Part shown: piece after piece, positions 14,041-46,678 of the stretch
Numbering within the stretch: position 1 is the stretch's first letter
How the letters are laid out: each line of letters begins with the position of its first letter
Assembly (NCBI GenBank): GCA_905479325.1
Contig: CAJQLW010000048.1
Span: 1-64,000, forward strand
Origin: an uncultured Flavobacteriales bacterium
GTDB lineage: Bacteria > Bacteroidota > Bacteroidia > Flavobacteriales_E > Vicingaceae
Length of the DNA stretch: 64,000 nucleotides
Direction: 5' to 3'
Translations under genes and position numbers: made by a program
The notes under the pieces: model-generated
Told to the model about the DNA's origin: nothing
The model's database searches: none
The model's input: only the letters and a program-made list of their open reading frames with translations

Positions 14041-14043
14041 AGA

Positions 14044-14367: not shown

Positions 14368-15007
14368 CCGTTTTCCCTCCGGTTACTTTTTGCTCTAAGT
14401 TTACTTTTAACTTGGCATCTAACGGAATGAATAAATCTACTCTTGAGCCAAACTTAATAAAGCCACATTCTTCACCTTGAGTATATTCTTGACCAACCTT
14501 GCCGTAAAAAACAATTCTTCTAGCCAAAGCTCCTGCAATTTGTCGAAACAAAATGCTTCTACCCTTAGCATCTTCAATTACCGCTGTAGTTCGTTCATTT
14601 TCGGTAGATGATTTTGGGTGCCACGCAACCAAAAATTTACCAGCATGGTATTTGTAAAAACTCAACTTTCCACCAATGGGGTAAAGATTGTTGTGAACGT
14701 TCAAAGGAGACATGAAGATAGAAATCTGTCTTCTTTTTTCATTCAATACTTCATCTTCCAAAACTTCTTCCATTACTACTACTTTGCCATCGCATGGGGA
14801 AAGTATTTGGTTTTCATTAATTTCAATTGTTTTGCTTGGCTTTCTAAAAAACTGAACAACTACTATGAATAGAAAAGCAGACAACAAATACCCGAAACCT
14901 GTTACAAGGGCATACTCTCCAAAAAAGTAATATGTAATGGCGTTAATTATAGCAATTACAACGATAATGAATCCAAGTGTTGGGTAACCTTCTTTGTGAA
15001 ATGTCAT
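14348..15007 (-). CDS. psd: Phosphatidylserine decarboxylase family protein
   Basis: A 219-residue decarboxylase of the short type, which makes phosphatidylethanolamine from phosphatidylserine. Two N-terminal membrane segments (residues ~10-50) are followed by ILSPCDGKVVVMEE, ISIFMSPLNVHNN, GKFLVAWHPKSSTENER and the self-cleavage site in GFIKFGSRVDLF, where Gly-Ser is processed to form the pyruvoyl cofactor. The length matches the short family. Located near cdsA, as expected for phospholipid synthesis. Confidence 0.92.
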   Translation of the reverse strand: MTFHKEGYPTLGFIIVVIAIINAITYYFFGEYALVTGFGYLLSAFLFIVVVQFFRKPSKTIEINENQILSPCDGKVVVMEEVLEDEVLNEKRRQISIFMSPLNVHNNLYPIGGKLSFYKYHAGKFLVAWHPKSSTENERTTAVIEDAKGRSILFRQIAGALARRIVFYGKVGQEYTQGEECGFIKFGSRVDLFIPLDAKLKVNLEQKVTGGKTVIAEFV

Positions 15008-24593: not shown

Positions 24594-25403
24594 ATGAAAA
24601 ATATAAGAGCTGCAGCAGATTACATAAAATCAAGAGGAGTTACAGAAGCGATTATTGGAATTGTTTTAGGAACAGGTTTAGGCAACCTAGCACTTCAAAT
24701 TGATGCGGAAGAAATAATTGACTATGCTGACATTCCCAACTTTCCGGTTTCAACGGTGGAATCTCATTCTGGCAAACTGATTTATGGAAATTTAAATGGC
24801 AAGAAAGTACTAGCCATGCAAGGACGATTTCATTATTACGAAGGTTATTCTGGGCAAGAGATAACGTTCCCGATTCGGGTAATGAAATTGTTGGGTATTG
24901 AAAAACTGTTAATTTCTAATGCAGCAGGAACGGTAAATCCCAATTTCAAAAAAGGCGAGTTAATGTTAATTGATGACCACATTAACATGTTGCCTGATAA
25001 TCCACTGCGAGGAAAGAATTTTGACGAGTTGGGTCCGAGGTTTCCAGACATGAGCCGGCCTTATAATAAGGAGATGAATGACTTGTTGAAAGTTATCGCA
25101 AAGGAAAAAGGCATAACGTTGCATGAGGGGGTGTACACTCCCGTTGCAGGACCAAACCTAGAAACCAGAGCAGAATATCGATATTTAAGAACTATAGGAA
25201 CCGATGCAGTAGGTATGTCCACTGTTCCTGAAGTCATTGTAGCCAATCACATGAGTATGCCTTGTGTTGCTATTTCTGTTTTAACTGATGAATGTGATCC
25301 TGATAATTTACACCCGGTTTCTATTGCCGAAATTTTAGAAATCGCCGGAAGGGCTGAGAAAGATTTAACGATGCTATATGTTGAATTGGTGGGAAGGTTT
25401 TAA
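24594..25403 (+). CDS. Purine-nucleoside phosphorylase
   Basis: A 269-residue trimeric-type PNP: GIVLGTGLGNLA, VSTVESHSGKLIYG, AMQGRFHYYEGYS, LLISNAAGTVNP, GVYTPVAGPNLETRAEYRYLR, GTDAVGMSTVPEVIVANHM and ISVLTDECDP. It cleaves the N-glycosidic bond of purine nucleosides with phosphate. PNPs are repeatedly found beside arsS, where removal of adenine from a dimethylarsinoyl adenosine intermediate would release the arsenoribose; that role is inferred from context. It could also be the general salvage enzyme. Confidence 0.9.
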   Translation: MKNIRAAADYIKSRGVTEAIIGIVLGTGLGNLALQIDAEEIIDYADIPNFPVSTVESHSGKLIYGNLNGKKVLAMQGRFHYYEGYSGQEITFPIRVMKLLGIEKLLISNAAGTVNPNFKKGELMLIDDHINMLPDNPLRGKNFDELGPRFPDMSRPYNKEMNDLLKVIAKEKGITLHEGVYTPVAGPNLETRAEYRYLRTIGTDAVGMSTVPEVIVANHMSMPCVAISVLTDECDPDNLHPVSIAEILEIAGRAEKDLTMLYVELVGRF

Positions 25404-26176: not shown

Positions 26177-27031
26177 TTAGTTGTAATTGTATTCTTTTTT
26201 TGTTCCGTCTTCAATGAAAAATTCCCATTTCCCTCTTTTTCGGTTCTCAACAAATTTTCCAATCATCTTTTCCGAGCCTGACTTGTACCACTCAATGTAA
26301 TTGCCATGTGCACTCGAATTCAACAAGCCTAATTTTGACTTTAATTCGCCTGTTTTGAAATAAGCAAATTGAATGCTTAATGAATCATTAAGGGTAAATA
26401 TCTGCTTTTTTAATTCTCCCGAGCCATAATAATAAATTGAGTTTTCGCAAATGTCATTTATGAACTTCTCTTCTTTAACCAGGCTGCCAGTCTCATCATA
26501 ATGTTTCCAAGATCCTGATCTTAAGTCTAATTTAAATTTACCAATTACAACTGAATCGCCTATTTCATTATACTTTATGTATCTCCCGTCTTTCATGCCA
26601 TCCTTAAAACTTATTTCTTCAGAAAGATAACTCTTAGAGAGGAAGCCTTGATTAGCATATAGTTGTGCAATTCCATCTAAAACACCTTCTTTAAAAAAAA
26701 GCAATTGTTTCATAATACCATTGCCGAAATAATATTTTTGTTGCCCGTGTAGCTTGTTTTTGAAATAGTTGGAACTTTGTACTAGAACTTCATTTTTATC
26801 ATACACTCTCCATTCACCTGTCAGCTCCCCGTTGTTGTAGTTACCAATTTGCCACAATTTTCCCGATTCGTGAAAAATTTGATAAAGACCATTTTTAATA
26901 CTACCATCGGTTAGGTAAATTTCTTTTCGTGATTTATTATCGTAAAAGGTTATGACGGTGTCTGTCTGACTGCAGATTAGCCCCGATAGACAAAGACATG
27001 AGAGTAATAAAAAGAGAGTTACTACCTTCAT
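26177..27031 (-). CDS. Secreted MORN-repeat (YwqK-type) protein
   Basis: A 284-residue protein with a signal peptide (residues 1-21, ending CLSGLICSQ) followed by about nine MORN-type repeats of ~20-25 residues, such as GKLWQIGNYNNGELTGEWRVYD, GIMKQLLFFKEGVLDGIAQLY and GELKSKLGLLNSSAHGNYIEWY. Such repeats are often annotated as YwqK-family antitoxins, but a secreted repeat protein is more likely a structural or binding protein. It overlaps the chaperone-like gene by four bases and is therefore co-transcribed with it. A role in the same surface system is inferred. Confidence 0.7.
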   Translation of the reverse strand: MKVVTLFLLLSCLCLSGLICSQTDTVITFYDNKSRKEIYLTDGSIKNGLYQIFHESGKLWQIGNYNNGELTGEWRVYDKNEVLVQSSNYFKNKLHGQQKYYFGNGIMKQLLFFKEGVLDGIAQLYANQGFLSKSYLSEEISFKDGMKDGRYIKYNEIGDSVVIGKFKLDLRSGSWKHYDETGSLVKEEKFINDICENSIYYYGSGELKKQIFTLNDSLSIQFAYFKTGELKSKLGLLNSSAHGNYIEWYKSGSEKMIGKFVENRKRGKWEFFIEDGTKKEYNYN

Positions 27032-27819
27032 TCTATGATAACACGTTTTCTAATTGCCTTTATAGTTCCTAGCACACCTGGGTCAATCAAGAATAAACAT
27101 TCATGCGCCCCTTTACTTAAACTACTTAGGTCATATGTTATGTTTTTTATCTGATTTGGATAAAGAGTTGTCGTAGTCGGTGCAGACTGGAATTCTTTAT
27201 TTGTTGATTCAGAATAAGATGAATAGAAATATTTAAATTGTTTCACCTCACCCTCAGTTGTGTTTTTTAGTTTAAACGATAAAACATTATTTAATTTATT
27301 GAACAAGATTGTACTGTCTATAATTTCAAACGAAACGTTGGTTTCTTCGTTAAAGTTCTGTATAATTTTCACCGCAATCCGAGGAATTAGATTTATACCG
27401 GTTTGAATCGACTTTTTTTCAAAAATACCTTCAACATTATCTTTTTGAATACTTACAAATGCCGTTAGCCATTTCGTTTTGTTTGCGTCAGGGTTTCTTG
27501 GGCTCAAAGTTAAGGTAATAATCCCTGTTTGTTCTGGGCCAACTAATATTTCTTCATTATCTAAGGAAAGCCATTTATAACAACTATTTATAGTAGATCC
27601 CGCTTCAACATATTGTCTTTTACCATCTTGCCCAAAAAATTCGTCAGAGAAGCTAAGTTTGTAGGTATTTGGGGTTTCGTCGTGGTTTGTGATGTATAAG
27701 TTAATTGATTGAGGGGTTTTAGTGGTAGCAGTGAAATTTAAAACAACCGGGGCAACCTCGAAGTCTTGGGCTAAGAGAGTTAAGCAAAAGCTGCATAATA
27801 GTGTTAATATGATTTTCAT
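27028..27819 (-). CDS. PapD-like periplasmic chaperone of a putative chaperone/usher system
   Basis: A 263-residue protein from the ATG at 27819, preferred over an ATG 51 bases upstream because MKIILTLLCSFCLTLLAQ is then a clean signal peptide. The mature part looks like two immunoglobulin-type domains. The first has FEVAPVVLNF, SINLYITNHDETPNTYKLS, CYKWLSLDNEEILVGPEQTGIITLTLSP and LIPRIAVKI, which follow the order of strands and the interdomain linker in PapD-like pilus chaperones (N-terminal P-x-x-V strand, strand with P-x-x-Q/T, final I-P-R-I-x-V-K-I strand). The second spans ~150-260. It diverges from two secreted beta-rich proteins and an usher-like protein. Family match is weak in sequence and supported by context. 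Confidence 0.6.
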   Translation of the reverse strand: MKIILTLLCSFCLTLLAQDFEVAPVVLNFTATTKTPQSINLYITNHDETPNTYKLSFSDEFFGQDGKRQYVEAGSTINSCYKWLSLDNEEILVGPEQTGIITLTLSPRNPDANKTKWLTAFVSIQKDNVEGIFEKKSIQTGINLIPRIAVKIIQNFNEETNVSFEIIDSTILFNKLNNVLSFKLKNTTEGEVKQFKYFYSSYSESTNKEFQSAPTTTTLYPNQIKNITYDLSSLSKGAHECLFLIDPGVLGTIKAIRKRVIIE

Positions 27820-27832
27820 AATATTTTTTACA

Positions 27833-27840
27833 TATATTTG
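27833..27840 (+). promoter_or_regulatory. -7 box for the pilin/usher-like operon
   Basis: TATATTTG is a full match to TAnnTTTG. Transcription would begin near 27845, leaving a ~25-base leader before the ATG at 27870. A clear -33 TTG is lacking. It lies in the same 50-base gap as the divergent chaperone promoter. Confidence 0.45.
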
Positions 27841-27854
27841 CGCAATATTACTAA

Positions 27855-27887
27855 CAAATTTAACAAACAATGAAAAATATTACAAAA
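27855..27887 (-). promoter_or_regulatory. Promoter for the chaperone/MORN-repeat genes
   Basis: On the minus strand, TTTTG (27887-27883) and TAAATTTG (27862-27855) are separated by 20 bases, matching the -33 and -7 boxes. Its -33 box lies within the first codons of the divergent pilin-like gene, and its -7 box is 14 bases from that gene's own -7 box, so the two transcripts must share a control region. Confidence 0.5.
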
Positions 27888-28502
27888 GTAGTCTTAGCTG
27901 TATTCGCGGGCTTGTTTTCTTTAAATTCTTTCAGTCAGCCTGTGTCGGACAGAGCTGTAGTTCCGGTAGCCCTAACATTAAATCAAATTCTTAGACTGAA
28001 CGTCGTAGACGGAGGGAATATAGAGTTTGTATTTAATAGAATCGATGATTATGAAACAGGTATTGCAAATGCTGACATATACGATACACAAATAACTGTC
28101 GCTTCATCTACCTCTTGGCAGTTAAATATGGGAGCTGAAGATGCAAATTTTATTGGTGTTGATAATCCTGCTAATACACTTGCTCTTGGGTATGTTGGTT
28201 TTCAAATTACCACTGGCGCCGGGTTGCATACGTTTGGTGCAGAATTGACGGACATAGGAGGGTCAAATGCAGCTGTGATTGCATTACCTCAATACCCTGT
28301 TACCGTTGTTGGTAGCAGAGCTGCAGCTGCTGGAGTTACGACAAATGCAGGAGATGTATTAGATAACATTTTGGTATTTAATTGGGAGGCTAACACGGCT
28401 AATGCCGCGCTGCTTTCAGCAGTTGATCCAATTATTGATATAAATCAAGCCCCTGACCGTTACGTTACTAATGTATTACTAGATATTTCAATTGAGCCTT
28501 AA
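27870..28502 (+). CDS. Secreted beta-rich protein, putative pilin-like subunit 1
   Basis: A 210-residue protein with a signal peptide (residues 1-22, ending SLNSFSQ). The mature protein is rich in Ala, Val, Asn, Thr and has predicted beta-strands throughout, no Cys, and a last strand YVTNVLLDISIEP with alternating hydrophobics as in fibre subunits. The segment ILRLNVVDGGNIEFVFNR plus DDYETGI recurs in the next protein as ARLSVLSANNVEVVVNS plus DEISNGV (R, L, V, N, E, V, N, D, G conserved), so they look like paralogous subunits. No database family is named here with confidence. Function as a pilin is inferred from the neighbours. Confidence 0.65.
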   Translation: MKNITKVVLAVFAGLFSLNSFSQPVSDRAVVPVALTLNQILRLNVVDGGNIEFVFNRIDDYETGIANADIYDTQITVASSTSWQLNMGAEDANFIGVDNPANTLALGYVGFQITTGAGLHTFGAELTDIGGSNAAVIALPQYPVTVVGSRAAAAGVTTNAGDVLDNILVFNWEANTANAALLSAVDPIIDINQAPDRYVTNVLLDISIEP

Positions 28503-29058
28503 GGTTTTATTCAAAAACACAATACTGCTACTTCTGCATTCTGGATGGGTATGCGCTTTAACTGCGCAAGATTGGAACTCAGCAAGGCTTTCAGTTTTAT
28601 CCGCAAATAATGTAGAAGTAGTAGTAAATTCTTTTGATGAAATTTCTAATGGAGTTGAAATTCCTAGTGCTTTAACGCTTGGAGTAACTTTATCGAATGT
28701 TGTTAATGTTCCGGCTACTCCTGGTCTTACTGGATTCGATATAGTATTTAGAACTGCTAATGGCATTGCCACTTCAATGGAAGGCTCAGGAGGTAGTAAT
28801 TTGGACTTAAACACAATTGCGATAAGCCTATCCAATAATGTTGGGTTTGGTGTAAATTCATTTTTTAATGGTTTTGTCATGTTAAGTCAAACAAATCAAA
28901 CATTAATGAGTAGCAGTGTTTTTCCATGTGATTGGACTACTCACAAAATTGATGCTCAGTTTGACTTTGGGACCATAAATTGTTTGGGTAAATTAAATGA
29001 TCAACCATCGGGCTATTATACAGTCGAAATTGAATATACGTTGGAGCCAACTTTTTAG
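28492..29058 (+). CDS. Secreted beta-rich protein, putative pilin-like subunit 2 or tip
   Basis: A 188-residue protein from a TTG at 28492, overlapping the previous gene by 11 bases; no ATG gives the signal peptide (residues 1-25, ending WVCALTAQ), so the TTG start is the best choice. The mature part resembles subunit 1 at its N-terminus (VEVVVNSFDEISNGV) and C-terminus (YTVEIEYTLEPTF). It has two cysteines (CDWTT and NCLGK, ~25 residues apart) that could form a disulfide, unlike subunit 1. It may be a minor or tip subunit. No known domain recognised. Confidence 0.6.
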   Translation: MSLKVLFKNTILLLLHSGWVCALTAQDWNSARLSVLSANNVEVVVNSFDEISNGVEIPSALTLGVTLSNVVNVPATPGLTGFDIVFRTANGIATSMEGSGGSNLDLNTIAISLSNNVGFGVNSFFNGFVMLSQTNQTLMSSSVFPCDWTTHKIDAQFDFGTINCLGKLNDQPSGYYTVEIEYTLEPTF

Positions 29059-31987
29059 TTTTTTAATTTTTCTTTTTTTAATAGGTCAATCTATCTATGG
29101 ACAAGAAATCGACTCTGCGGCATACTCAATAGACAAGGACGAGTTTTTTGAAAATCTAAATAAGGGTTGGTTGCCAGATTCGGTTAATCCAAATACGAGT
29201 ATTATAACATCTAATTTCTACTTTAAAAAGAGAAAGGAAGTTATAGTTGACGAGAATATTTTGTGGAAAAGCCTGGTAATCAAAAATAATAACAACACAT
29301 ATCTCAAAGGTGAAATAAAATTTTACTCCGGAAGCTTTGTTAAGCCGTTAGGTTCTAGAGGTATATCGATTAATTTAAAGCCATATTCTGATACAACAAT
29401 AGTTATCCCATTCATTGTTGATGTCAGTAAAGTTGAAGGAGGAAAAACAACTACAATTCAAGCATCCTTCTTACCTGCGAATCTGTTTCTTAATCGAGAA
29501 TCTCAATTAGAGGCCGTGAGCTTTATAAAGGTGGAAAAAAACGGAGGTTGGTTAATTAAATCAAAATTAGATAATCCAATCTGGTTGAGCTTTGAAAATG
29601 AAAAGTACATTAAACTGTACATTAGTAACAATTCTAATTACTCAAAAAGATTTAAGGTCAATGTAAAGAATTCGAAATCAGGGAATTTGACACTTGATAG
29701 ATTCATTGAATTACAAAGGTTTAAAGATACCGTAATAGATATTTCGATTTCTAAGCCTCTTTCAAATTCATTAGATGAGAATAGGTTTCTTGTGCAGGTC
29801 AGTCACGAAAATGTTGTAAAGGAAAATAGGGTGTACACAAATCTTTATGATAATAATTATAACGCTAATAATCGATATGGTGCAACTCCTTTCAATCTTG
29901 AGGTTGGGGTATTTAATTTTGGCGGGAATGGTGCCCCCGGCTTTTCATTAAAAACGTGGGGTGATATTAACTTTACAGAGGATCAACGTTTGCGTTATTC
30001 CATGTTACTATACAACCTTAATAATAATAGTGGGGCAGAAGACATTTGGAGGTTTAGTAGAGGGGATGTGTCATACTCTAAAGGCAACTCTTTTATTAGT
30101 GTTGGAGATCAAAGTCTTGGTGGAGATTTTTACCGAGAATTTGGCAGGGGCGCGCAATTAAAGTCAGACTTATTAACGGGAAAAGACTTTAATGTTGGGA
30201 TTGGTTACGTGAAAAGTCTATTCATCGATAGATCTAGTTATTCATCTTCAGGTTCTTTTAATTTAAAAGGTATAAACATTCGTCCTGCTTTTATATATTC
30301 AATTGATAAAACCAATTTTGTTAATAAGATGGAAGGGAGTGTTTCAGGATCTACTTCTATTAAGCAACACAGCATATCCATTGGATTATCTCAATCTGTA
30401 CGGTCCAATAATTACGATTCAACAACTTTTCAAACCGCTTCTAACACATTTTTAGCTGATACTACTCTTCGCGGGCGTGGTGTTCGGGTAGCATATAGTT
30501 TTAACATAAATCGATGGAGATTTAGTGCAAGTTCTATGTCAAAATCAAGGCATCATGCCGGTTCACAAAATGCAGTTCAGCAACAAAAGTTGAACGTTTT
30601 TAGAGAAATTGGTGAGAACAGTAGTGCTTCGCTAATATTTACTAGGAGGAAAAATATACCTTCTGAGTCCTTCTATGGCCGCCTTGTGAATAATAACTAT
30701 GTAGATATAAGTCGAACTTATCTCAATTACAATTATAAAGTTTTTAGCACCAATATTACTTCAGGGGTGCATTATTATTATTCGGAGTTGACAAATGTAT
30801 TGAATCCTTCAACTGCCGCTCCAAGTGATATGATATTTTATGCTTCTCCACGTTTTTTCACTCGGGTTAGCGGAAAAATTGAAGATATTAGTTTGACGGC
30901 TTTCGTTGAATCTGGTGCTACATATTTTAACCTTCCTGAAATTAAAGGAGGAGAAGAGGAGGGCAGACTTACCCAGATTGGAATAAATGTGCAAGATGGA
31001 AACTCTATTTTTTCAGTCAGATTTAGTGATGGGGTTTTTACTCCCAGTATATTAGGGTTAAACGCATTAAATATTAGTAATTCTTCTAACTTTAATGCAA
31101 GGTATAGGGCCAATAAAAAAATACTGCAGGACAAAGTTCAGCTGGATTTAAGCGCAAATTATGTTAATTACACTACGGCTAAAGTTTCATTGTTTACTGG
31201 TAACATCGGTTCGCAACTTAATTTAAGTCAAGGGATAACCATTTCTACTTTTTTTAATATATCAACATACTCTTCAAGTGATCAAGAACGAATATCAAAG
31301 TCTATATTTACCAACGTAGGTTTTAGAATTAGAAAAGAATTCAACTTTGATCAGCCTGTTTTAAGTTATAGGGATATTAGTTTCAATTTATATTTTGATC
31401 AAAACGGCAATAGTATGCGAGATAGCAACGAAATCGTAATTTCTGATGTGTTAATCACTATTGAAGGAGATAAAAATAATCTTCAACAAATCGAAGGAAC
31501 ATCAATTACAGAAAATAATGGTGCTGCTTTCTTTCAAGACATTCCCACTGGTAATTACACAATTAAAATTAACCCTATTGGGAATACAAATTCGGGTGTC
31601 AGTGGAACAGATTTTGAACTAAATCTTTCAAAAGATATGGTAATAAATGTGCCACTAACTGAAAAGTATGTTCTAGACGGGAGGGTTATGCTAAATAAGG
31701 CGAAATATAGTAGGATCAATAATTTTGATTATTCGCTTTTGAGGATCAAAGTAATTGACCCAAGAGATGAGGTAACATTTATAAATATAGATAATAATGG
31801 ATCATTTAGGCGGCAACTTACGAAAGTCGAGGGACTTTATAAAGTTGAGTTAATGACTGATCAAATTCCTAGTTTTCTAATTCCGGAGAACAGAGTCTTT
31901 TATTTTGATATTGATGGGTTTAAGTCTTATCAAATAAATTTTAAGCTAAATGAAGCTAAGCCGGCTATTTTTATTTTAGACAAATAA
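28997..31987 (+). CDS. Large outer-membrane protein with usher-like block
   Basis: A 996-residue secreted protein overlapping the previous gene by 62 bases; an internal TTG at 29030 gives a more compact signal peptide (MNIRWSQLFSFLIFLFLIGQ) and may be the real start. Residues ~60-290 look like two beta-sandwich domains, ~300-785 like a large beta-barrel with repeated aromatic-flanked strands, and ~795-996 like Ig/SdrD-B-type domains (FDQNGNSMRDSNEIVISDV). Residues 351-391 hold W-x4-RGD, then SVGDQSLGGDFYREFGRGAQLKSD. As I recall them, FimD-type ushers have a W-x-x-x-x-D…GD…GD-x-F…FRGAQL-x-SDD block at the same relation to the barrel. The role as an outer-membrane pore for subunit export is inferred. 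Confidence 0.65.
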   Translation: MINHRAIIQSKLNIRWSQLFSFLIFLFLIGQSIYGQEIDSAAYSIDKDEFFENLNKGWLPDSVNPNTSIITSNFYFKKRKEVIVDENILWKSLVIKNNNNTYLKGEIKFYSGSFVKPLGSRGISINLKPYSDTTIVIPFIVDVSKVEGGKTTTIQASFLPANLFLNRESQLEAVSFIKVEKNGGWLIKSKLDNPIWLSFENEKYIKLYISNNSNYSKRFKVNVKNSKSGNLTLDRFIELQRFKDTVIDISISKPLSNSLDENRFLVQVSHENVVKENRVYTNLYDNNYNANNRYGATPFNLEVGVFNFGGNGAPGFSLKTWGDINFTEDQRLRYSMLLYNLNNNSGAEDIWRFSRGDVSYSKGNSFISVGDQSLGGDFYREFGRGAQLKSDLLTGKDFNVGIGYVKSLFIDRSSYSSSGSFNLKGINIRPAFIYSIDKTNFVNKMEGSVSGSTSIKQHSISIGLSQSVRSNNYDSTTFQTASNTFLADTTLRGRGVRVAYSFNINRWRFSASSMSKSRHHAGSQNAVQQQKLNVFREIGENSSASLIFTRRKNIPSESFYGRLVNNNYVDISRTYLNYNYKVFSTNITSGVHYYYSELTNVLNPSTAAPSDMIFYASPRFFTRVSGKIEDISLTAFVESGATYFNLPEIKGGEEEGRLTQIGINVQDGNSIFSVRFSDGVFTPSILGLNALNISNSSNFNARYRANKKILQDKVQLDLSANYVNYTTAKVSLFTGNIGSQLNLSQGITISTFFNISTYSSSDQERISKSIFTNVGFRIRKEFNFDQPVLSYRDISFNLYFDQNGNSMRDSNEIVISDVLITIEGDKNNLQQIEGTSITENNGAAFFQDIPTGNYTIKINPIGNTNSGVSGTDFELNLSKDMVINVPLTEKYVLDGRVMLNKAKYSRINNFDYSLLRIKVIDPRDEVTFINIDNNGSFRRQLTKVEGLYKVELMTDQIPSFLIPENRVFYFDIDGFKSYQINFKLNEAKPAIFILDK

Positions 31988-32040: not shown

Positions 32041-32619
32041 TTATTTAAACAAATTCATATCAGCCACATATTCAGCTACTAGAGATGGCATGTAATGCTG
32101 AACATTTCTCCCATCTATAATGGCTTTTCGTATAAACGAAGATGAAATCTTCATCACTGGAGCTTCAACATAATTTACTTTATAATGGCGTTTCAAATCT
32201 CCTCCTTCATTAGAGTCCATTCTTGGGTACACATACAATTCATGGTTTTCTAAAATAACATCGTGATTTTTCCATTTGTGAAAATGGTTTAAATTATCTG
32301 CACCCATAATTAGAGAGAACTTATTTTTTGGGAACTTCTCTCTCAAATAGACTAATGTGTCAACTGTGTAATTTGGTTGGGGCAAATCAAATTCAATGTT
32401 TGAAGCTTTTAATCTAGGATCGTCCCCTATGGCCAATTGCAACAAATGTAAACGATCGTAATCTTTCAAAATAGAGTCTTTTTGTTTGAAAGGGTTTTGA
32501 GGAGTCACCACCAACCAAACTTCATCCATATCGGTAAACTCCACCATGTAGTTCGCAATCACCATGTGCCCTACATGAACAGGGTTGTAAGTGCCAAAGA
32601 ACAAGCCTATTTTTTTCAT
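32041..32619 (-). CDS. nadD: Nicotinate-nucleotide adenylyltransferase
   Basis: A 192-residue nucleotidyltransferase of NAD synthesis (NaMN plus ATP to deamido-NAD). The motif GLFFGTYNPVHVGHMVIANYM (GTFNPxHxGH type) is at residues 4-24, with LIMGADNLNHFHKWK and the C-terminal ISSSFIRKAI (SSTxIR type). Its ATG shares one base with the gmk stop (TAATG), so the two are translationally coupled. Confidence 0.95.
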   Translation of the reverse strand: MKKIGLFFGTYNPVHVGHMVIANYMVEFTDMDEVWLVVTPQNPFKQKDSILKDYDRLHLLQLAIGDDPRLKASNIEFDLPQPNYTVDTLVYLREKFPKNKFSLIMGADNLNHFHKWKNHDVILENHELYVYPRMDSNEGGDLKRHYKVNYVEAPVMKISSSFIRKAIIDGRNVQHYMPSLVAEYVADMNLFK

Positions 32620-33179
32620 TACGCTAGAAATTTTTTCACAATTAAATTAGCAGCTCCCACTGCCTTTTCAAGCTCATCGTTAAGCACCACGTAATCGAAT
32701 TGATCAGCTGTAATGAGTTCTTGTTTGGCTTTTTCCAACCGCTTTTGAATGCGTGCGGGACTATCTGTTCCCCTACCTTTTAGCCTTTCTTCTAAGGCTT
32801 TCATGCTTGGTGGCATTACAAAAATAGAAAGGGCATTTTCTCTAAAATGTTTTTTAAGATTAATTCCTCCCACTACATCTACATCAAAAATAACAGCTTT
32901 TCCGCTATCCCAAATTCGTTCAATTTCTGATTTTAATGTGCCGTAAAAATGTTCTTCATAGACCTCCTCCCATTCAATGAATTCATCTTCGTCAATCTTC
33001 TTTTTAAAATCAGCTACGGAAAGGAAATAATAATCCTTCCCATTTTCCTCCGTTCCTCTTTTATCTCGTGTTGCAGCCGAGATGGAGAATTCTAAAGGTA
33101 AACCTTCAGTTAATAATCGCCTAACAATAGTCGTTTTACCTGCTCCGGAGGGTGCCGAGAAAATGATGCATTTGTTCAT
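32619..33179 (-). CDS. gmk: Guanylate kinase
   Basis: A 186-residue kinase converting GMP to GDP. Walker A is IFSAPSGAGKTTIVRRL (residues 5-21), followed by FSISAATRDKRGTEENGKDYYF, EWEEVYEEHFYGTLK and ILDVDVVGG-like VIFDVDVVGG. Length normal. It overlaps yicC and nadD by one base each, a common Bacteroidota arrangement. Confidence 0.96.
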   Translation of the reverse strand: MNKCIIFSAPSGAGKTTIVRRLLTEGLPLEFSISAATRDKRGTEENGKDYYFLSVADFKKKIDEDEFIEWEEVYEEHFYGTLKSEIERIWDSGKAVIFDVDVVGGINLKKHFRENALSIFVMPPSMKALEERLKGRGTDSPARIQKRLEKAKQELITADQFDYVVLNDELEKAVGAANLIVKKFLA

Positions 33180-34051
33180 TACAATACGTTTAATACCTGC
33201 TCTTTAATTTTTTCAAGTTGGTCTTTCATTTGAACAACCAATTTCTGCATTTGTGCATGATTAGATTTAGAACCTAATGTATTTACTTCTCTTCCAATTT
33301 CTTGTGAAATAAATCCTAGTTTTTTCCCTTGTCCTTGTTCCTCTGCCATTGTTTTCTTGAAATAATCGCAGTGGGCTTTCAAGCGAACTTTTTCTTCAGA
33401 GATATCATATTTTTCCATATAAAAAATCATCTCTTGCTCAAAACGATCCATATCAACATTATCCTTTTGTTGAGCGTCTTCTAAGTTGGATAAAATTCTA
33501 GTTCGAACCGTTTCTGTTCGTTCATCTTCGTATTTTAATGCCTCGGCTAATAAGCTTTCAATCTTATTAATATGGTCGGTTAAGTCCAATTCTAACGTTT
33601 TCCCTTCGTCTGCTCTGAAGCTGTTTATTTCAACTAAAGCTTCTTTTAATAGCGTTAATACTGCGTTGTCGTTGCTTTCGTTTACTGACTCTTCTCGTGC
33701 TTTTAAAATCTCGGGCATCTTTAAAATTGTTGCCGTCAAATTAGAGTTGTCTAGTTTAAACTTACCGTTTAAAAGACTTAGCTGATTATAATAGCGCTGA
33801 AAAACTACTTCATCTATTTCATAGCTGTTTTCTTTTTCGTTCGCTTCATAAGACAAATACATTTCAATTTTACCACGTTGCAGGTCCTTGGCTATTTCCT
33901 TTCTAAGAACTAACTCTTGGTCTTTGAATAAGGAGGGAACTTTAACGCTAACATCCGCTTGCTTACTGTTCAGGGATTTAAGCTGAATCGTAATTTTCTT
34001 ATTCCCTATTACTCCTTCGGCTTTTCCATAGCCGGTCATTGAATGTATCAT
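33179..34051 (-). CDS. yicC: YicC family endoribonuclease-type protein
   Basis: A 290-residue protein with the YicC N-terminal start MIHSMTGYGKAEG and the C-terminal DUF1732 block (DVDMDRFEQEMIFYMEKYDISEE, LGFISQEIGREVNTLGSKSN). YicC proteins are reported to act in RNA turnover and stress survival. It overlaps gmk by one base and lies 42 bases after aspS. Confidence 0.93.
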   Translation of the reverse strand: MIHSMTGYGKAEGVIGNKKITIQLKSLNSKQADVSVKVPSLFKDQELVLRKEIAKDLQRGKIEMYLSYEANEKENSYEIDEVVFQRYYNQLSLLNGKFKLDNSNLTATILKMPEILKAREESVNESNDNAVLTLLKEALVEINSFRADEGKTLELDLTDHINKIESLLAEALKYEDERTETVRTRILSNLEDAQQKDNVDMDRFEQEMIFYMEKYDISEEKVRLKAHCDYFKKTMAEEQGQGKKLGFISQEIGREVNTLGSKSNHAQMQKLVVQMKDQLEKIKEQVLNVL

Positions 34052-37328: not shown

Positions 37329-38597
37329 ATGAACGTAATATCATTCAAAAAACCAGCCATCCACTTTCTCGGTCTGTTTTCTTTTTTGTTAGCATTTAGT
37401 GTATCATCAACTACACTACAAGCGCAAGAAGATGGAGAAAAACTATTCAAAAGCTATTGTGCGTCATGTCATAGTCCAGGTGCAAACCAACTAGTTGGTC
37501 CGGGATTGGCAGGTGTGTATGACAAGTACGAGCGCGAGTGGTTGTATAAGTGGATTAAAAACTCAGGAGAGCTAATAGCTTCTGGAGATGCTCAGGCCGT
37601 TGCTGTATTTGAGCAATACAACAAAGTCATTATGCCTGCTCAACCTGTTACTGATGTTCAGGTTGATGCAATTTTGGATTACATTAAAGTTTATAACGAG
37701 TCTGCGCCTGTTGTTGCTGATGCAGGTGCTGCAGGAGCTGCAGAAGTAGTGGAAGTTGAAGATCCAGGAATTTCAAATTATGCTATTGCGGGTTTGGTTG
37801 TTCTTTTTTTAATTGTGATTATACTGTTAAGAAAAGTTCAATACATCTTCACTGCTGCTAAGGCAAGAGAAGCTGGAGAGGAAATGCCGGAAGAGACAAC
37901 CTTGACTCAAGCGCTGGCGTTAACAGTTTCTCAGAATAAAACAATTTTTGCTTTGTTGGGAATTGTTTGTCTTGCTATGTTTGCCAAGGTTGGATGGGAT
38001 TCAGCTTTTGGTGTTGGTGTTTACCAAGGTTACGAGCCGGAACAGCCAATTAAATTTTCGCATGAATTGCATGCAGGAACAAACGGCATTGATTGTAATT
38101 ACTGTCACAACAGTGCTTCTTATTCTAAGTCCGCCGGAATCCCTTCTCCAAACTTATGTATGAACTGTCATACTTACATTCAGGAAGGCCCTCAGTACGG
38201 TAAGGAAGAAATTGGAAAAATTTACGCCGCTTTAGATTTTGATCCCGTAACTAAGACTTACGGTCCAAATCAAAAGCCAATTAAATGGGTTAAGGTTCAT
38301 AATTTGCCGGATCACGTTTATTTTAATCACTCACAGCACGTTTCTATTGGTAAAATTGCTTGTCAAAAGTGTCATGGTCCAGTTGAAACGTACACGGTAG
38401 GTAAGCAACACGCAGAACTTACTATGGGTTGGTGTATTAATTGCCACAGAGAAACAAAAGTTCAGATGGCCGATAACGGTTATTATGATGAAATTCACAA
38501 AAGACTTCCTGAAGAGTTGAAAAAACAATATTTAGAGGATGGTACGATTACCGTTTCTGAATTAGGAGGTATTGAGTGTGCAAAGTGTCATTATTAA
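37329..38597 (+). CDS. actA: Alternative complex III subunit ActA, multiheme cytochrome c
   Basis: A 422-residue protein with signal peptide (1-33) and six CxxCH heme sites: CASCH at 44-48 in an N-terminal class I cytochrome domain, then, after two membrane segments (~150-170 and ~205-225), CNYCH, CMNCH, CQKCH, CINCH and CAKCH. ActA carries the periplasmic hemes that pass electrons from quinol oxidation toward the terminal oxidase. The N-terminal monoheme domain is joined to the usual pentaheme part. First gene of actABCDEF-coxBA. Confidence 0.93.
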   Translation: MNVISFKKPAIHFLGLFSFLLAFSVSSTTLQAQEDGEKLFKSYCASCHSPGANQLVGPGLAGVYDKYEREWLYKWIKNSGELIASGDAQAVAVFEQYNKVIMPAQPVTDVQVDAILDYIKVYNESAPVVADAGAAGAAEVVEVEDPGISNYAIAGLVVLFLIVIILLRKVQYIFTAAKAREAGEEMPEETTLTQALALTVSQNKTIFALLGIVCLAMFAKVGWDSAFGVGVYQGYEPEQPIKFSHELHAGTNGIDCNYCHNSASYSKSAGIPSPNLCMNCHTYIQEGPQYGKEEIGKIYAALDFDPVTKTYGPNQKPIKWVKVHNLPDHVYFNHSQHVSIGKIACQKCHGPVETYTVGKQHAELTMGWCINCHRETKVQMADNGYYDEIHKRLPEELKKQYLEDGTITVSELGGIECAKCHY

Positions 38598-38624
38598 GAT
38601 TTAACAAGAAGCAGTATAAAGCTT

Positions 38625-41600
38625 ATGTCAAATAATAAAAAATATTGGAAAGGAGTTGAAGAGTTAAATAACTCTCCAGCTTTTCAAGAGGTAAAGTCGA
38701 AAGAGTTTAACGAATATTTGCCTGCGGAAGACTTCTTAGGAGATGAAGGGTTGTTGGCTAATTCAAATACATCGAGAAGAGACTTTTTAAAGTATCTTGG
38801 CTTTGGTGTAACTGCAGCATCATTGGCGGCATGTGAAGCTCCGGTAAATAAAGTAATCCCTCATGTAGTTAAAGGCGATAAAACAAATCCTGGTGTGGCA
38901 AATTATTTTGCTACTAATTACTCAGATGGATTTGATTATTGTGATATCGTTGTAAAAACGAGAGAAGGTCGTCCAATTAAAATCGAAGGCAATAAAAAGT
39001 CTCCGCTAACAGGTGGGGCAATTAATGCAAGAGTTAATTCTTCCGTTCTTTCATTATATGATGAAAAAAGGTATAGAGCTCCTGAAATAGGAGGTACTCC
39101 TACAACATGGTCTAAGTTTAATGGAACGGTTAAAAAACAACTTTCAGATGCATTGGCAAACGGAGGTAAAGTCCGAATTCTGACCAATTCAATTACAAGC
39201 CCTTCAACAAAAAAACTTGTTGCTGATTTCGTTGCCGCTAATCCATCAGCTGATATCAAACACGTTTCTTATGATGCAGTTTCTGCTAGTGGAATGATTG
39301 AAGCAAACAAAGAAAGTTTTGGAGTGGCAGCGCTACCAACTTATGATTTATCTAAAGCAAAATCAATTGTTAGTATTGGGGCTGATTTTATGAACAGCTT
39401 TCCGTCTTCAATTGAATTAACATCTCAATACGCTAAGGGTAGAAAACCTGAAAATGGTTGGATGTCGAAGCACTTTCAATTTGAAGCGTCGCTTTCTTTG
39501 AGTGGTTCCAATGCAGATGTTAGAATGCCAATGAAACCATCGGAGTATGGTAAAACTGTAGCTGCTATTTACAACTACCTAAATGGTAGTAAGTCCAACG
39601 TGGCGCCAAAAGTTAAAATGGCAGCTGAGCACTTGTTAGCCAATAAAGGTGAGTCTATTGTTTTGTGTGGTGTTAATGATAAAGACATTCAAAACGTTGT
39701 AATTGCCATCAATCATATGTTAGGCAATTACGGAACTACGGTTAGCATTAAAAGAGCTTCCAATCAGCGCCAAGGCGTTGATGCGGATGTAGCATCTTTA
39801 GTAAACGACTTGAAGTCGGGTTCAGTTGATGTTTTATTAATTGACGGAGTGAATCCCGTATACAGCATGCCAGCTGATATGGATTTTAAAGGGGCAATGG
39901 CAAAAGCGAAAACATCAATTGTTTTTGCTAGTAGACCAACAGAAACTTCAGTAGAAGCAAAAATGGTTGGCGCTGCGCCACATTATTTAGAGTCATGGAA
40001 CGATTCAAATCCTGTTGCAGGACATTACTCAATTACTCAACCTTCTATTAGTCCATTGTTCGACACAATGCAATTTCAAGACTGCATGATTTCTTGGATG
40101 GGACTAGATGGTAATTATTACGATTTCATTAAAGCGACGTGGCAAGCAGTAACGTTTCCAATGCAATCAGAATCGTTGTTGTTCGAAGATTTCTGGAATA
40201 CAACGTTAGAGCTAGGTTACTTTACAGGTAAAACAGCTGAAGGAGTTGAGTTAACTTTTACAGATAATGCTTCGGCAGCGTTATCTAAGATTTCAAAAAT
40301 AAAGTCTTCAGAATTAGAAATAGAGTTTTATTCTAAGGTAGGAATCGGAAACGGGAATCAGTCTCACAACCCATGGTTGCAAGAGTTGCCGGATCCAATT
40401 TCTAAAATAACTTGGGACAATTACATAGCCATGAACCCTGCAGAAGCCAAAGAAAAAGGTTTCGCAATTGAATATGGCGAGCAAAAAGATGCAGATACCA
40501 TAAACATTACCATTAACGGTGTGACGTTCGAGAACGTTCCCGTAGTTGCTCAGCCAGGGCAAGCACCGGGCACATTGTCAGTAGCGTTAGGTTATGGTCA
40601 AACCATTGGTAAGAGTAATGAAATTATCGGATTTAACGTATATCCCGCTGTAAAAGGCATGATGGGATATGCTACTGAAGTTTCTATGGAAGCTGCAGGA
40701 GAGAAATACCAAATTGCAACTACTCAAACGCACCAAACCGTTATGGGAAGAACATCAGTAGTTAGAGAAACTACGTTAGATGTTTTTAAAAACGGTTCAA
40801 AAGAAGATTACAATCCTGCTCATATGTTGGCTACTCATGAAGGGCCAATGAATGTCAATGATGTAGATTTATGGGCTGCTCATCCGGTAGCTACAGCTGG
40901 TCACCATTGGGGAATGAGTATTGACTTAAATACTTGTATTGGTTGTGGTTCATGTGTTACTTCATGTAACTCAGAAAACAACGTTCCTGTTGTAGGAAAA
41001 GACGAGGTGCGAAGATCAAGAGAAATGCATTGGATGAGAATTGATAGATATTTTAGTTCAAGTCCAGAATCTGTTGAAGACAGAAATTATGGTGAAATGG
41101 AGAGCCCTGAGGATAATCCTATGGTAGTTCATCAACCAATGATGTGTCAGCATTGTAACCACGCTCCATGTGAGACAGTTTGTCCTGTTGCGGCAACTAC
41201 TCATAGTAACGAAGGTTTAAACCAAATGACTTATAATAGATGTATCGGTACAAGATATTGTGCGAACAACTGTCCTTATAAGGTTAGACGATTTAACTGG
41301 TTTAACTACATGGGTTACGATAAATTTGCTGATTTGAATCCATCTCAAGACGATTTAGGGCGTATGGTATTAAACCCAGATGTTACAGTTCGAGCTAGAG
41401 GCGTAATGGAGAAATGCAGCCTTTGTGTGCAAAGGATACAAACTGGTAAGTTAGACGCTAAAAAGGAAAGCAGACCTGTAATGGACGGAGACATTGAAAC
41501 AGCTTGTTCTTCAGCTTGTCCTACAAATGCGATTACTTTTGGTGATTACAATGATAAATCAAGTAAAGTACTAGCTGCTTCTCAAAGTAACAGAGCATAC

Positions 41601-41681
41601 AGAGTTATTGAAGAAGTGGGAACACAATCAAACATTTATTACCAAGTTAAGGTAAGAAATACAGAATCAAATATTGCTTAA
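38625..41681 (+). CDS. actB: Alternative complex III subunit ActB (molybdopterin-oxidoreductase-like plus Fe-S domain)
   Basis: A 1018-residue protein. An N-terminal extension ends in a twin-arginine signal SRRDFLKYLGFGVTAASLAAC with a lipobox-like Cys, so it is exported folded and possibly lipidated. Residues ~80-740 are the molybdopterin-oxidoreductase-like part, which in ActB proteins lacks a bound cofactor. The C-terminal ~250 residues hold ferredoxin-type cluster motifs CIGCGSCVTSC, CQHCNHAPCETVCP, CIGTRYCANNCP and CSLCVQR, with a further CSSACP. It relays electrons within the complex. It follows actA by 27 bases. Confidence 0.95.
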   Translation: MSNNKKYWKGVEELNNSPAFQEVKSKEFNEYLPAEDFLGDEGLLANSNTSRRDFLKYLGFGVTAASLAACEAPVNKVIPHVVKGDKTNPGVANYFATNYSDGFDYCDIVVKTREGRPIKIEGNKKSPLTGGAINARVNSSVLSLYDEKRYRAPEIGGTPTTWSKFNGTVKKQLSDALANGGKVRILTNSITSPSTKKLVADFVAANPSADIKHVSYDAVSASGMIEANKESFGVAALPTYDLSKAKSIVSIGADFMNSFPSSIELTSQYAKGRKPENGWMSKHFQFEASLSLSGSNADVRMPMKPSEYGKTVAAIYNYLNGSKSNVAPKVKMAAEHLLANKGESIVLCGVNDKDIQNVVIAINHMLGNYGTTVSIKRASNQRQGVDADVASLVNDLKSGSVDVLLIDGVNPVYSMPADMDFKGAMAKAKTSIVFASRPTETSVEAKMVGAAPHYLESWNDSNPVAGHYSITQPSISPLFDTMQFQDCMISWMGLDGNYYDFIKATWQAVTFPMQSESLLFEDFWNTTLELGYFTGKTAEGVELTFTDNASAALSKISKIKSSELEIEFYSKVGIGNGNQSHNPWLQELPDPISKITWDNYIAMNPAEAKEKGFAIEYGEQKDADTINITINGVTFENVPVVAQPGQAPGTLSVALGYGQTIGKSNEIIGFNVYPAVKGMMGYATEVSMEAAGEKYQIATTQTHQTVMGRTSVVRETTLDVFKNGSKEDYNPAHMLATHEGPMNVNDVDLWAAHPVATAGHHWGMSIDLNTCIGCGSCVTSCNSENNVPVVGKDEVRRSREMHWMRIDRYFSSSPESVEDRNYGEMESPEDNPMVVHQPMMCQHCNHAPCETVCPVAATTHSNEGLNQMTYNRCIGTRYCANNCPYKVRRFNWFNYMGYDKFADLNPSQDDLGRMVLNPDVTVRARGVMEKCSLCVQRIQTGKLDAKKESRPVMDGDIETACSSACPTNAITFGDYNDKSSKVLAASQSNRAYRVIEEVGTQSNIYYQVKVRNTESNIA

Positions 41682-41692
41682 AACAAGATAGA

Positions 41693-43084
41693 ATGCATCA
41701 AGAAGCAGCGATAAGAGAACCGTTAATACTAGGAGAAAAGTCATACAGCCAAATTACTGATGATGTTTTAGCCTCAGTTGTAGGAAAAGCCAACCGTTCA
41801 TGGTGGATAGCCTTTGGAATTGCAGCCGTTATGGCAGCATGGGGTATTGGTTGTATTTTATATTTATTAGGAACAGGTATTGGTACTTGGGGTTTGAACA
41901 AAACCGTAGGTTGGGCTTGGGATATTACCAACTTCGTATGGTGGGTAGGTATCGGTCATGCAGGTACATTAATTTCTGCAGTACTTTTACTGTTTAGACA
42001 AAAATGGAGAATGGCTATTAACCGTTCAGCAGAAGCCATGACAATTTTTGCCGTAATGATGGCTGCAGTTTGGCCTGGAATTCACATGGGAAGAATTTGG
42101 TTAGCGTATTTTGTTTTTCCACTACCAAACCAGTTTGGCTCTCTTTGGGTAAACTTCAACTCACCACTTTTATGGGATGTATTTGCAATTAGTACTTACT
42201 TCTCTGTTTCTTTGGTTTTCTGGTATATCGGCTTAATTCCCGATTTTGCAACCATTAGAGATAAAGTGACTCAAGTAGTTCCGAAAAAAGTATATACTTT
42301 ACTGGCATTCGGATGGACAGGTAATGCAAAAGCATGGAATAGATTTGAAGAGATCTCATTAGTACTTGCGGGTTTAGCTACGCCGCTTGTGTTCTCCGTT
42401 CACTCTATTGTATCGATGGACTTTGCAACCTCAGTTATTCCGGGTTGGCATACAACAATTTTCCCTCCATATTTCGTATCAGGAGCGGTTTTCTCAGGAT
42501 TTGCTATGGTGCAAACACTCTTAATCATCATGAGAAAAGTGATGAATCTAGAGAATTATATTACCATCAAACACATTGAATACATGAATATTGTAATTAT
42601 TGTTACAGGTTCTATAGTTGGTGTTGCTTACTTAACTGAATTATTTATTTCTTGGTATTCCGGTGTGGAATACGAAGCATACGCTTTTATCAATAGAGCT
42701 ACCGGACCTTATTGGTGGTCATATTGGGCTATGATGACATGTAATGTTGTTTCACCTCAGGTATTTTGGTTTAAAAAACTAAGAACTAGCATTGGTTTTA
42801 CTTTCTTCATGTCTATTGTGGTTAATATAGGTATGTGGTTTGAGCGTTTTGTAATTATTGTTACATCATTACATAGAGACTATTTACCATCAAGTTGGAC
42901 AATGTTCCATCCGACGTTTGTAGATATTGGGTGTTTTATTGGAACCATTGGGATTTTCTTCGTATTGTTCCTATTGTTTTCTAGATTTTTCCCTGTATTA
43001 CCTTTGAATGAATTGAAAACGATCTTGAAGTCTTCCGGAGAGCAGTACAAGAAAATTGAAACAACAACTGCTGAGGAGCATTAA
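41693..43084 (+). CDS. actC: Alternative complex III subunit ActC (NrfD/PsrC family)
   Basis: A 463-residue integral membrane protein of the NrfD/PsrC type with about ten membrane segments. Characteristic runs include TNFVWWVGIGHAGTLISAVLLL, AVWPGIHMGRIWLAYF, FHPTFVDIG and the long loop GWHTTIFPPYFVSGAVFSG. ActC and ActF form the quinol-binding and proton-pathway membrane core. Spacing of 11 bases to actB and 12 to actD supports one operon. Confidence 0.95.
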   Translation: MHQEAAIREPLILGEKSYSQITDDVLASVVGKANRSWWIAFGIAAVMAAWGIGCILYLLGTGIGTWGLNKTVGWAWDITNFVWWVGIGHAGTLISAVLLLFRQKWRMAINRSAEAMTIFAVMMAAVWPGIHMGRIWLAYFVFPLPNQFGSLWVNFNSPLLWDVFAISTYFSVSLVFWYIGLIPDFATIRDKVTQVVPKKVYTLLAFGWTGNAKAWNRFEEISLVLAGLATPLVFSVHSIVSMDFATSVIPGWHTTIFPPYFVSGAVFSGFAMVQTLLIIMRKVMNLENYITIKHIEYMNIVIIVTGSIVGVAYLTELFISWYSGVEYEAYAFINRATGPYWWSYWAMMTCNVVSPQVFWFKKLRTSIGFTFFMSIVVNIGMWFERFVIIVTSLHRDYLPSSWTMFHPTFVDIGCFIGTIGIFFVLFLLFSRFFPVLPLNELKTILKSSGEQYKKIETTTAEEH

Positions 43085-43096
43085 AAAATTGTTAAG

Positions 43097-43624
43097 ATGA
43101 CGAACGATAAAATTATATACGCAACGTACGATGACGACATGACTCTGTTAGCAGGAGCTAAGGAGTTGGTTGCAAAAGGTGTTCACATTAGAGATGTTTT
43201 CTCTCCATTCCCTATTCATGGACTAGATCCTGTGATTGGTATAAAGCAAACCAGGCTAGCAATTTGTGCATTTATTTATGGTTTGGTTGGGCTTTCATTA
43301 GCTTTGGCAGGCATGTATTACTTTATGATTGTAGATTGGCCGATGAATATTGGTGGAAAGCCAAATAACTTTTTCTATCAAAACATTCCTGCTTTTGTGC
43401 CAATTTCTTTCGAGTTTACGGTATTACTTGCAGCTCATGGAATGGCATTAACTTATTTCATTAGGAATTGGACGTTGCCAGGTGTTACTGCTAGAAATCC
43501 ATATCCTGAAACTACAAACGACAGATTTGTAATGGAAATTCATCCATCAGATTTTGGAATGTCTGTGGAAGATTTGACTGCTGAATTGCAGAAGACAGGA
43601 ACAATATTAATTGAAGAAAGATAA
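43097..43624 (+). CDS. actD: Alternative complex III subunit ActD (DUF3341)
   Basis: A 175-residue protein with a cytoplasmic N-terminal ferredoxin-like part (YATYDDDMTLLAGAKELVAKGVHIRDVFSPFPIHGLD) and two membrane segments (~53-75 and ~95-120), as in DUF3341 ActD proteins. The C-terminal FVMEIHPSDFGMSVEDLTAELQKTG is also typical. It is a structural subunit of the membrane arm. Confidence 0.92.
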   Translation: MTNDKIIYATYDDDMTLLAGAKELVAKGVHIRDVFSPFPIHGLDPVIGIKQTRLAICAFIYGLVGLSLALAGMYYFMIVDWPMNIGGKPNNFFYQNIPAFVPISFEFTVLLAAHGMALTYFIRNWTLPGVTARNPYPETTNDRFVMEIHPSDFGMSVEDLTAELQKTGTILIEER

Positions 43625-43653
43625 GCGGAACTATTATTTTGAATAGAGACAGA

Positions 43654-44274
43654 ATGAAACGAATTATCAATACAATATTTATGGCAACCATCGGAACAAT
43701 GTTCTTTGTTGCCTGTGAAGACCCTCAAAGTCCAGGAGTAGAATACATGCCTGACATGTATCGTTCTCCGGCAATAGAAGTTTATGTAGATTATGAATTC
43801 CCGGATTCATCTACAGCCAGAAAAGCTCCTGAGAATTCAATACCTCGCGGTTATAGGCCATATGCATATCCCAATACAAATGAGGGATATGAAATGGCGG
43901 GACAACAATTGTCAAATCCTTTAATGCTAACTGAGAAGACAATTAAGGAAGGTCAGCAATTATATACTTCTTTTTGTGCTCATTGTCATGGTAAGAAAGG
44001 TTTAGGAAAGGGGTCGATTCAGAATGCTATTTATGGTGCAGTGCCATCTTATGCTGATGAGACACCAAATAGAAGAGGAAATCGTTCTATGAGTCAATTA
44101 TCAGAGGGGCATATTTATCATACCATATTGTTTGGATTAAATGCAATGGGCCCTCATTCAAGTTTAATTCGTGAGAACGATAGATGGAAAATAGTTGCTT
44201 ACGTTCAAACGCTGCAAGGGAAAGATCCTTTATCTAAAAAAGAAGAAGCACCAAAAGCAGAAACTGCAGAATAA
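43654..44274 (+). CDS. actE: Alternative complex III subunit ActE, monoheme cytochrome c lipoprotein
   Basis: A 206-residue protein from the ATG at 43654, preferred over an in-frame TTG at 43639. MKRIINTIFMATIGTMFFVAC is a lipoprotein signal with the lipidated Cys at 21. One heme site, CAHCH (108-112), lies in a class I cytochrome c domain; a distal Met probably comes from FGLNAMGPHSS. ActE is the likely exit point for electrons to the oxidase. Confidence 0.92.
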   Translation: MKRIINTIFMATIGTMFFVACEDPQSPGVEYMPDMYRSPAIEVYVDYEFPDSSTARKAPENSIPRGYRPYAYPNTNEGYEMAGQQLSNPLMLTEKTIKEGQQLYTSFCAHCHGKKGLGKGSIQNAIYGAVPSYADETPNRRGNRSMSQLSEGHIYHTILFGLNAMGPHSSLIRENDRWKIVAYVQTLQGKDPLSKKEEAPKAETAE

Positions 44275-44308
44275 AAATTCAAACTAGAAAAGACGAAAAA
44301 ACTAAAGC

Positions 44309-45571: not shown

Positions 45572-45589
45572 AAGATTAAATAGAAGATA

Positions 45590-46657: not shown

Positions 46658-46678
46658 TTAAGATAAATTAATAGGAAT

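Follow-up and report, generated by a model that had tools for sequence, protein, structure and literature searches.

The window analysed here, a 64,000-nucleotide stretch of contig CAJQLW010000048.1 from an uncultured Flavobacteriales bacterium of the Vicingaceae, carries at positions 26177 to 31987 a cluster of five genes that most likely makes hair-like surface fibres, using a chaperone and an open channel of unusual type in the outer membrane, and is common to many Bacteroidota. A first-pass annotation, made from the sequence alone, had assigned five genes to this region as a candidate chaperone-usher type system, and all five open reading frames were confirmed. The features are:

26177..27031, minus strand: MORN, a secreted MORN_2-repeat protein of 284 amino acids (open reading frame; Pfam MORN_2, E 3.9e-11)
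27028..27819, minus strand: CHAP, a secreted two-domain immunoglobulin (Ig)-like protein of 263 amino acids from its ATG, proposed periplasmic pilin chaperone
27820..27869, no strand: divergent promoter region of 50 base pairs (bp) between CHAP and SUB1, with one Bacteroidota-type -7 box (TAnnTTTG) per strand
27870..28502, plus strand: SUB1, a secreted beta-protein, proposed major pilin
28492..29058, plus strand: SUB2, a secreted beta-protein with a TTG start and a SUB1-homologous core without the N-terminal extension, proposed tip pilin
28997..31987, plus strand: USH, an usher-like outer-membrane protein of 996 amino acids (AlphaFold2 model, Foldseek)

CHAP and SUB1 start back to back across the 50 bp. 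MORN overlaps the stop of CHAP by 4 bp and is translationally coupled behind it, and on the plus strand SUB1, SUB2 and USH each run into the next gene. Signal-peptide-like starts are present on all five proteins, and the source genome (2.7 Mb) showed no second CHAP, SUB1 or USH gene. The case for the two -7 boxes as a divergent promoter is weak, since they are not conserved across all members of the genus.

The genes of the cluster are closely linked. An alignment search for USH matched 57 of 395 sampled Bacteroidia genomes, three of which were removed, their matches being confined to ~65 residues in the SdrD_B-like C-terminal part, so that 54 remained; a separate search found CHAP in 57 genomes. 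A survey of co-occurrence, of the kind that the first-pass annotation had suggested, gave USH and CHAP together in 53 of the 54 USH genomes, against ~8 expected by chance, and in the sole genome with USH and without CHAP (G236) USH lies on an 8-kb contig. USH is present in three of five genomes of the same genus at 51-94% identity, with distant relatives in other families, and the whole set of MORN-CHAP / SUB1-SUB2-USH was found again within the genus as well as in families far from it; the order CHAP / SUB1 / SUB2 / USH recurs across the class Bacteroidia. A scan of named genomes with SUB1 gave 57 loci, every title of which is Bacteroidota (Flavobacteriales, Bacteroidales and metagenome-assembled genomes labelled Chitinophaga). 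Among 86 unique USH loci, SUB1 lies near USH in 78, CHAP in 65 and MORN in 40, with both CHAP and SUB1 adjoining USH in 60; these neighbour counts are lowered by gene fragments and contig ends, the latter cutting many of the loci that are not complete. Two subtypes could be distinguished, subtype 1 having MORN and a CHAP gene that is nearly always divergent, and subtype 2 having no MORN and CHAP-SUB1-SUB2-USH all in one direction, beside a smaller set of loci (L085-L091) with looser gene order. MORN, earlier proposed as an accessory part, does recur with the cluster, but only with the divergent subtype, and is an accessory protein limited to subtype 1.

The AlphaFold2 model of USH, built with 43 window and locus sequences, has a mean predicted local distance difference test score (pLDDT) of 76.5, rising to about 90 in the barrel, and shows two N-terminal Ig-like domains (~73-280), a barrel (299-782) and two C-terminal beta-sandwich domains (791-986). 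When the model was compared with the PDB using Foldseek, ranks 1-9 were all FimD or PapC (E 2.7e-13 to 5.5e-10), and the first unrelated, non-usher barrel appeared at E 2.9e-7. USH has no N-terminal recruitment domain of the usher type, the two Ig-like domains standing in its place; the N-terminal region of its relatives has NPCBM_assoc/FixG_C-like Pfam matches, and the C-terminal sandwich domains match SdrD_B in 42 and CarboxypepD_reg in 39 of 43 members. Pfam also places C-terminal SPOR domains in 10/43 and OmpA domains in 4/43 members, a hint that in these relatives the usher-like protein is anchored to peptidoglycan.

Ushers consist of a 24-strand beta-barrel with a plug domain set into the barrel (PMC8410936). 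A barrel of ~24 strands with a plug had been expected of USH as well, but the predicted barrel has about 26 strands between residues 299 and 782 and the plug is missing in 83 of 83 relatives. The interval at the plug site measures 70-94 residues in all of these aligned members, no part of the barrel could accommodate an insert of ~85 residues, and the USH family is therefore plug-less. In FimD, a GD...RGAQL-SD block lies directly ahead of the plug; its USH counterpart is on strands 5-6, from which the chain runs straight into the next strand. The FimD-like block seen in the first pass is indeed present (residues 370-391), but only its core G370, G383 and G385 are conserved (72, 74 and 79 of 83). 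The GD-x-F and AQL-x-SD letters, which give the closest match to FimD, are confined to the window's genus, and the motif was rejected as proof of usher homology. A USH profile gave no significant match to eight K-12 ushers. Cutting the plug out of the usher alignment raised the hhalign score of USH from 38.5 to 41.6, with 40 shuffles at no more than 18.9, and the profile similarity of USH to ushers may be called suggestive only. On these tests USH falls outside the defined usher family, and it is not a canonical usher.

SUB1 and SUB2 have the appearance of a rod and tip pair. Their common N-terminal motif (R-L-x-V...N-x-E/P-F/V...N), also pointed out in the first pass, is real and conserved in relatives. 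The leader of SUB1, from the end of the signal peptide to the GGNIEF motif, is 24 residues long in 70 of 72 homologues and 25 in the other two, and the median leader of 13 SUB2 homologues measured is 11 residues. Positions 31, 33, 35 and 37 of SUB1 are hydrophobic in 51/51 sequences, and positions 32 and 36 almost never are. In the AlphaFold2 model of SUB1 (pLDDT 86) there is no strand before residue 41, leaving residues 24-40 unpaired in the monomer, and protein residues ~24-40 are proposed as the donor-strand segment. Since SUB1 has this fixed, alternating-hydrophobic leader and SUB2 does not, SUB1 is likely the rod pilin and SUB2 the tip.

The best Foldseek matches to the SUB1 model were 9ikk (E 8.8e-7) and 9ikj (1.7e-6), with template modelling (TM) scores of about 0.55 to 0.58, followed by CfaB and CS17 and, at lower ranks, by TasA, FimA and CsuA/B; most of these are donor-strand pilins. 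In a sequence search with the window's SUB1, 9ikk and 9ikj were again the top matches but weak, and a profile comparison with K-12 pilins found none. Since Type V (FimA/Mfa1) fimbriae are the fibres known from the phylum (PMC5789003), these or some other Bacteroidota fibre anchored by lipoproteins might have been expected here, yet none of 51 SUB1 members matches the FimA/Mfa family in Pfam, the signal peptides of SUB1 and SUB2 have no lipobox, and the partner is an outer-membrane barrel, leaving this explanation scarcely plausible.

The structures 9ikj and 9ikk are filaments of 16 chains each, solved by cryo-electron microscopy and named TLP-1a and TLP-1b by their depositors; we take them to be part of the CryoSeek series, TLP presumably denoting Tsinghua Lotus Pond. 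The N-terminal strand of protomer n+4 reportedly inserts into protomer n in TLP-1, and if so, donor-strand exchange via the SUB1 extension has already been seen in a relative. The subtype-2 SUB1 of L021, whose genome belongs to the same family as the window, matches 9ikk at E 1.6e-45 and 9ikj at E 6e-44 over its full length, beginning where the mature protein starts. In the 395 class genomes the filament sequence was found 30 times, with identities reaching 50%; each of these 30 genomes also carries USH, and in the loci examined the match is the gene in the SUB1 position. The pond-water filaments of CryoSeek "could not be conclusively identified" by proteomics or metagenomics (PMC12967142), and in the literature consulted no biosynthetic genes are attached to the 9ikj/9ikk filaments. 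In some subtype-2 clusters a second, larger TLP-like protein (~450 amino acids) adjoins SUB1 (L073:6089-7450, L078:6002-7327, L080:10408-11748) and is a candidate two-domain tip adhesin.

The relatives of CHAP match several families in Pfam: fn3_5 in 33, WxLIP_PGBD in 14 and PapD_N in 4 of 35 (best PapD_N E 5e-4). Mature CHAP aligned with the E. coli K-12 FimC family at an hhalign score of 29.7, above all of 200 shuffles (maximum 23.7); a first CHAP-PapD value, at 85% probability, was discarded as inflated by the signal peptide. The CHAP profile also matches EfmWxLIP1 (E 4e-4) and, better, the chaperone of another Bacteroidota family represented by loci L160-L162 (E 2.5e-9), with which mature CHAP aligned at 54.8 (shuffles no higher than 20.0); a K-12 chaperone profile in turn matches chaperones of the L160-L162 type in sister genomes (5.6e-6). 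The L160-L162 chaperone-like gene adjoins that of an usher-like protein which has the plug as well (hhalign 93.7%), and since plug-bearing L157-L159 proteins gave no profile match to the USH barrel, the bridge is to the chaperone and not to the barrel. As for particular residues, positions 142, 144, 148, 150 and 152 of CHAP are hydrophobic in nearly all 35 members, a pattern in sequence only, and by alignment the strand 142-152 would correspond to the G1 strand that PapD-type chaperones donate. A proline is invariant in the PapD-like chaperone superfamily (PMC4654587); it is Asn88 in the window's CHAP and Pro in 31 of 35 relatives. The classical carboxylate-anchoring Arg/Lys is absent from CHAP, the aligned places being Val/Leu and Gly. 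CHAP is a putative chaperone.

The family to which L160-L162 belong (f90) has a chaperone, a plug-bearing usher-like protein that falls below the Pfam cut-off and several small secreted subunits, at L160 (6391-11392), L161 (6598-12778) and L162 (312-5506); one of its ushers carries a SPOR domain. These loci look like an unannotated archaic-type chaperone-usher system. The presence of such a plug-bearing usher and chaperone pair in the phylum, together with the statement of archaic systems for many phyla (PMC9452303), might be taken to mean that the window's cluster is itself an ordinary though divergent member of the archaic family. USH, however, has no plug, no Pfam Usher match, other N-terminal domains and ~26 predicted strands, and this explanation is held to be quite improbable.

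The evidence overall is best accounted for by a plug-less chaperone-usher-like pathway, consisting of CHAP, the SUB1/SUB2 pilins and the USH barrel, to which we assign a probability of about 0.78. Several findings weigh against it. The first-pass annotation had counted a different strand number and no plug as contrary to its own proposal, and the USH model has about 26 strands and no inserted plug domain. The predicted TM-score of that model is 0.53 and its TM-scores against ushers are 0.41 or less, so that the likeness is one of architecture and not of close superposition. In single-sequence and family scans alike, Pfam Usher (PF00577) is matched by none of the 43 USH members, nor by anything in the source genome. 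In the profile comparisons that had been recommended, the USH barrel alone aligned weakly with ushers (hhalign score 31.8, probability 6.6%; among the controls, reversed ushers scored 23.2, TonB-receptor and LptD 14-18.5), and mature CHAP, above all shuffles, reached a modest 18% probability against the PapD family. Pfam assigns subtype-2 CHAP to WxLIP_PGBD above its cut-off (E 2e-11).

Some of the same findings would suit a process in which SUB1, after export by another route, self-assembles outside the cell as TasA does, with USH as a scaffold that carries Ig domains and lies at the surface or resembles a porin, CHAP as a WxLIP-like structural partner and no usher-driven assembly. The SUB1 match to TasA, the WxLIP_PGBD match of subtype-2 CHAP and the USH lacking both a plug and an usher-family sequence match all point that way. 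Such a process does not readily explain why FimD/PapC folds fill the first nine Foldseek ranks for USH, why the linkage of CHAP, USH and pilin is near-perfect, or why a subunit without a donor leader is encoded beside one that has it, as in tip and rod pairs, and it is considered unlikely. The earlier proposal of a divergent chaperone/usher-like fibre system is well supported: the cluster is conserved, resembles a fibre-export system and encodes a chaperone-like protein, pilins of the donor-strand type and a barrel like that of an usher. Fold, homology to the pilin of a solved filament and linkage still favour a chaperone-usher-like machine. On this reading the cluster works like a chaperone-usher pathway, yet is a variant whose USH lies outside the usher family as defined.

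We infer the chaperone role of CHAP, the assembly order, the identity of the tip and, for the window's own subtype, strand exchange as follows. SUB1 and SUB2 would be exported by Sec as incomplete Ig-fold pilins and held in the periplasm by CHAP, which probably lends an alternating G1-like strand. The N-terminal Ig-like domains of USH may recruit the CHAP-pilin complexes, and its C-terminal sandwich domains may hold the base of the growing fibre. SUB2, because it has no N-terminal extension and could not donate a strand, would be delivered first and form the tip; copies of SUB1 would come next, each donating its N-terminal strand to an earlier subunit, and the resulting rod would exit via the wide plug-less barrel. 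The pore might be shut by the N-terminal Ig-like domains or by a bound CHAP-SUB2 complex.

A broader proposal is tentative, with somewhat less than even odds: that this is a pilus class of the Bacteroidota's own, always with a plug-less usher of ~26 strands, gated by something other than a plug and making multi-stranded donor-strand rods of the TLP-1 type, which would be widespread in aquatic Bacteroidia and would explain the environmental filament. Given the n+4 donation said to occur in TLP-1, four exchange chains would be intertwined in the rod, and a one-chain usher could not make such a rod in the usual way. No curated family covers the cluster, and no prior description of it in Bacteroidota was found in the literature searched, which omits most subscription papers. 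The cluster offers a testable genetic system for orphan environmental filaments whose makers are so far unidentified (PMC12967142), and it extends chaperone-usher-like assembly to a group in which 0 of 296 Bacteroidota genomes passed the Pfam Usher cut-off. A natural plug-less usher also raises the questions of how the outer membrane stays sealed and which part of the usher cycle needs the plug.

Other genes occur in and around the clusters. Several of them contain or adjoin genes for large TPR-repeat membrane proteins (L017:538-2424, 5394-7310, 12482-14398; L018:2499-5033; L055; L082; L096) that resemble protein O-glycosyltransferases, making pilin glycosylation possible. In three genus members the cluster is flanked by a purine nucleoside phosphorylase gene on one side and nadD/gmk on the other (window 24594-25403 and 32041-34051); its neighbours differ in L016, and the cluster has therefore moved. 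Elsewhere in the window, 37329-48439 is an ordinary Bacteroidota operon for alternative complex III and cytochrome oxidase.

In comparison with known systems, the cluster shares with chaperone-usher pathways (FimC/FimD/FimA; archaic CsuC/CsuD/CsuA-B) a secreted protein of two Ig-like domains, beta-sandwich pilins that begin with a donor-type extension and a large barrel in the outer membrane that has periplasmic domains at its N- and C-terminus and for which FimD and PapC are the best fold matches. It differs in the plug-less USH, with about 26 predicted strands rather than 24, two Ig-like N-terminal domains and no Pfam Usher match, and in a CHAP that lacks the classical anchoring Arg/Lys and, in the window, has Asn for the invariant proline. 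The WxLIP proteins (DUF916/DUF3324) of Firmicutes resemble CHAP through the matches to EfmWxLIP1 and, in subtype 2, to WxLIP_PGBD, whereas CHAP has no membrane anchor at its end, its gene accompanies those of the pilins and USH, and a WxL protein was not seen nearby. Type V fimbriae (FimA/Mfa1) are likewise fibres of Bacteroidota, but differ in sequence, in their lipoprotein subunits and in their export partner. The TLP-1a and TLP-1b filaments, which come from water samples, are full-length homologues of subtype-2 SUB1, and the window's SUB1, a shorter and distant relative, has the same fold.

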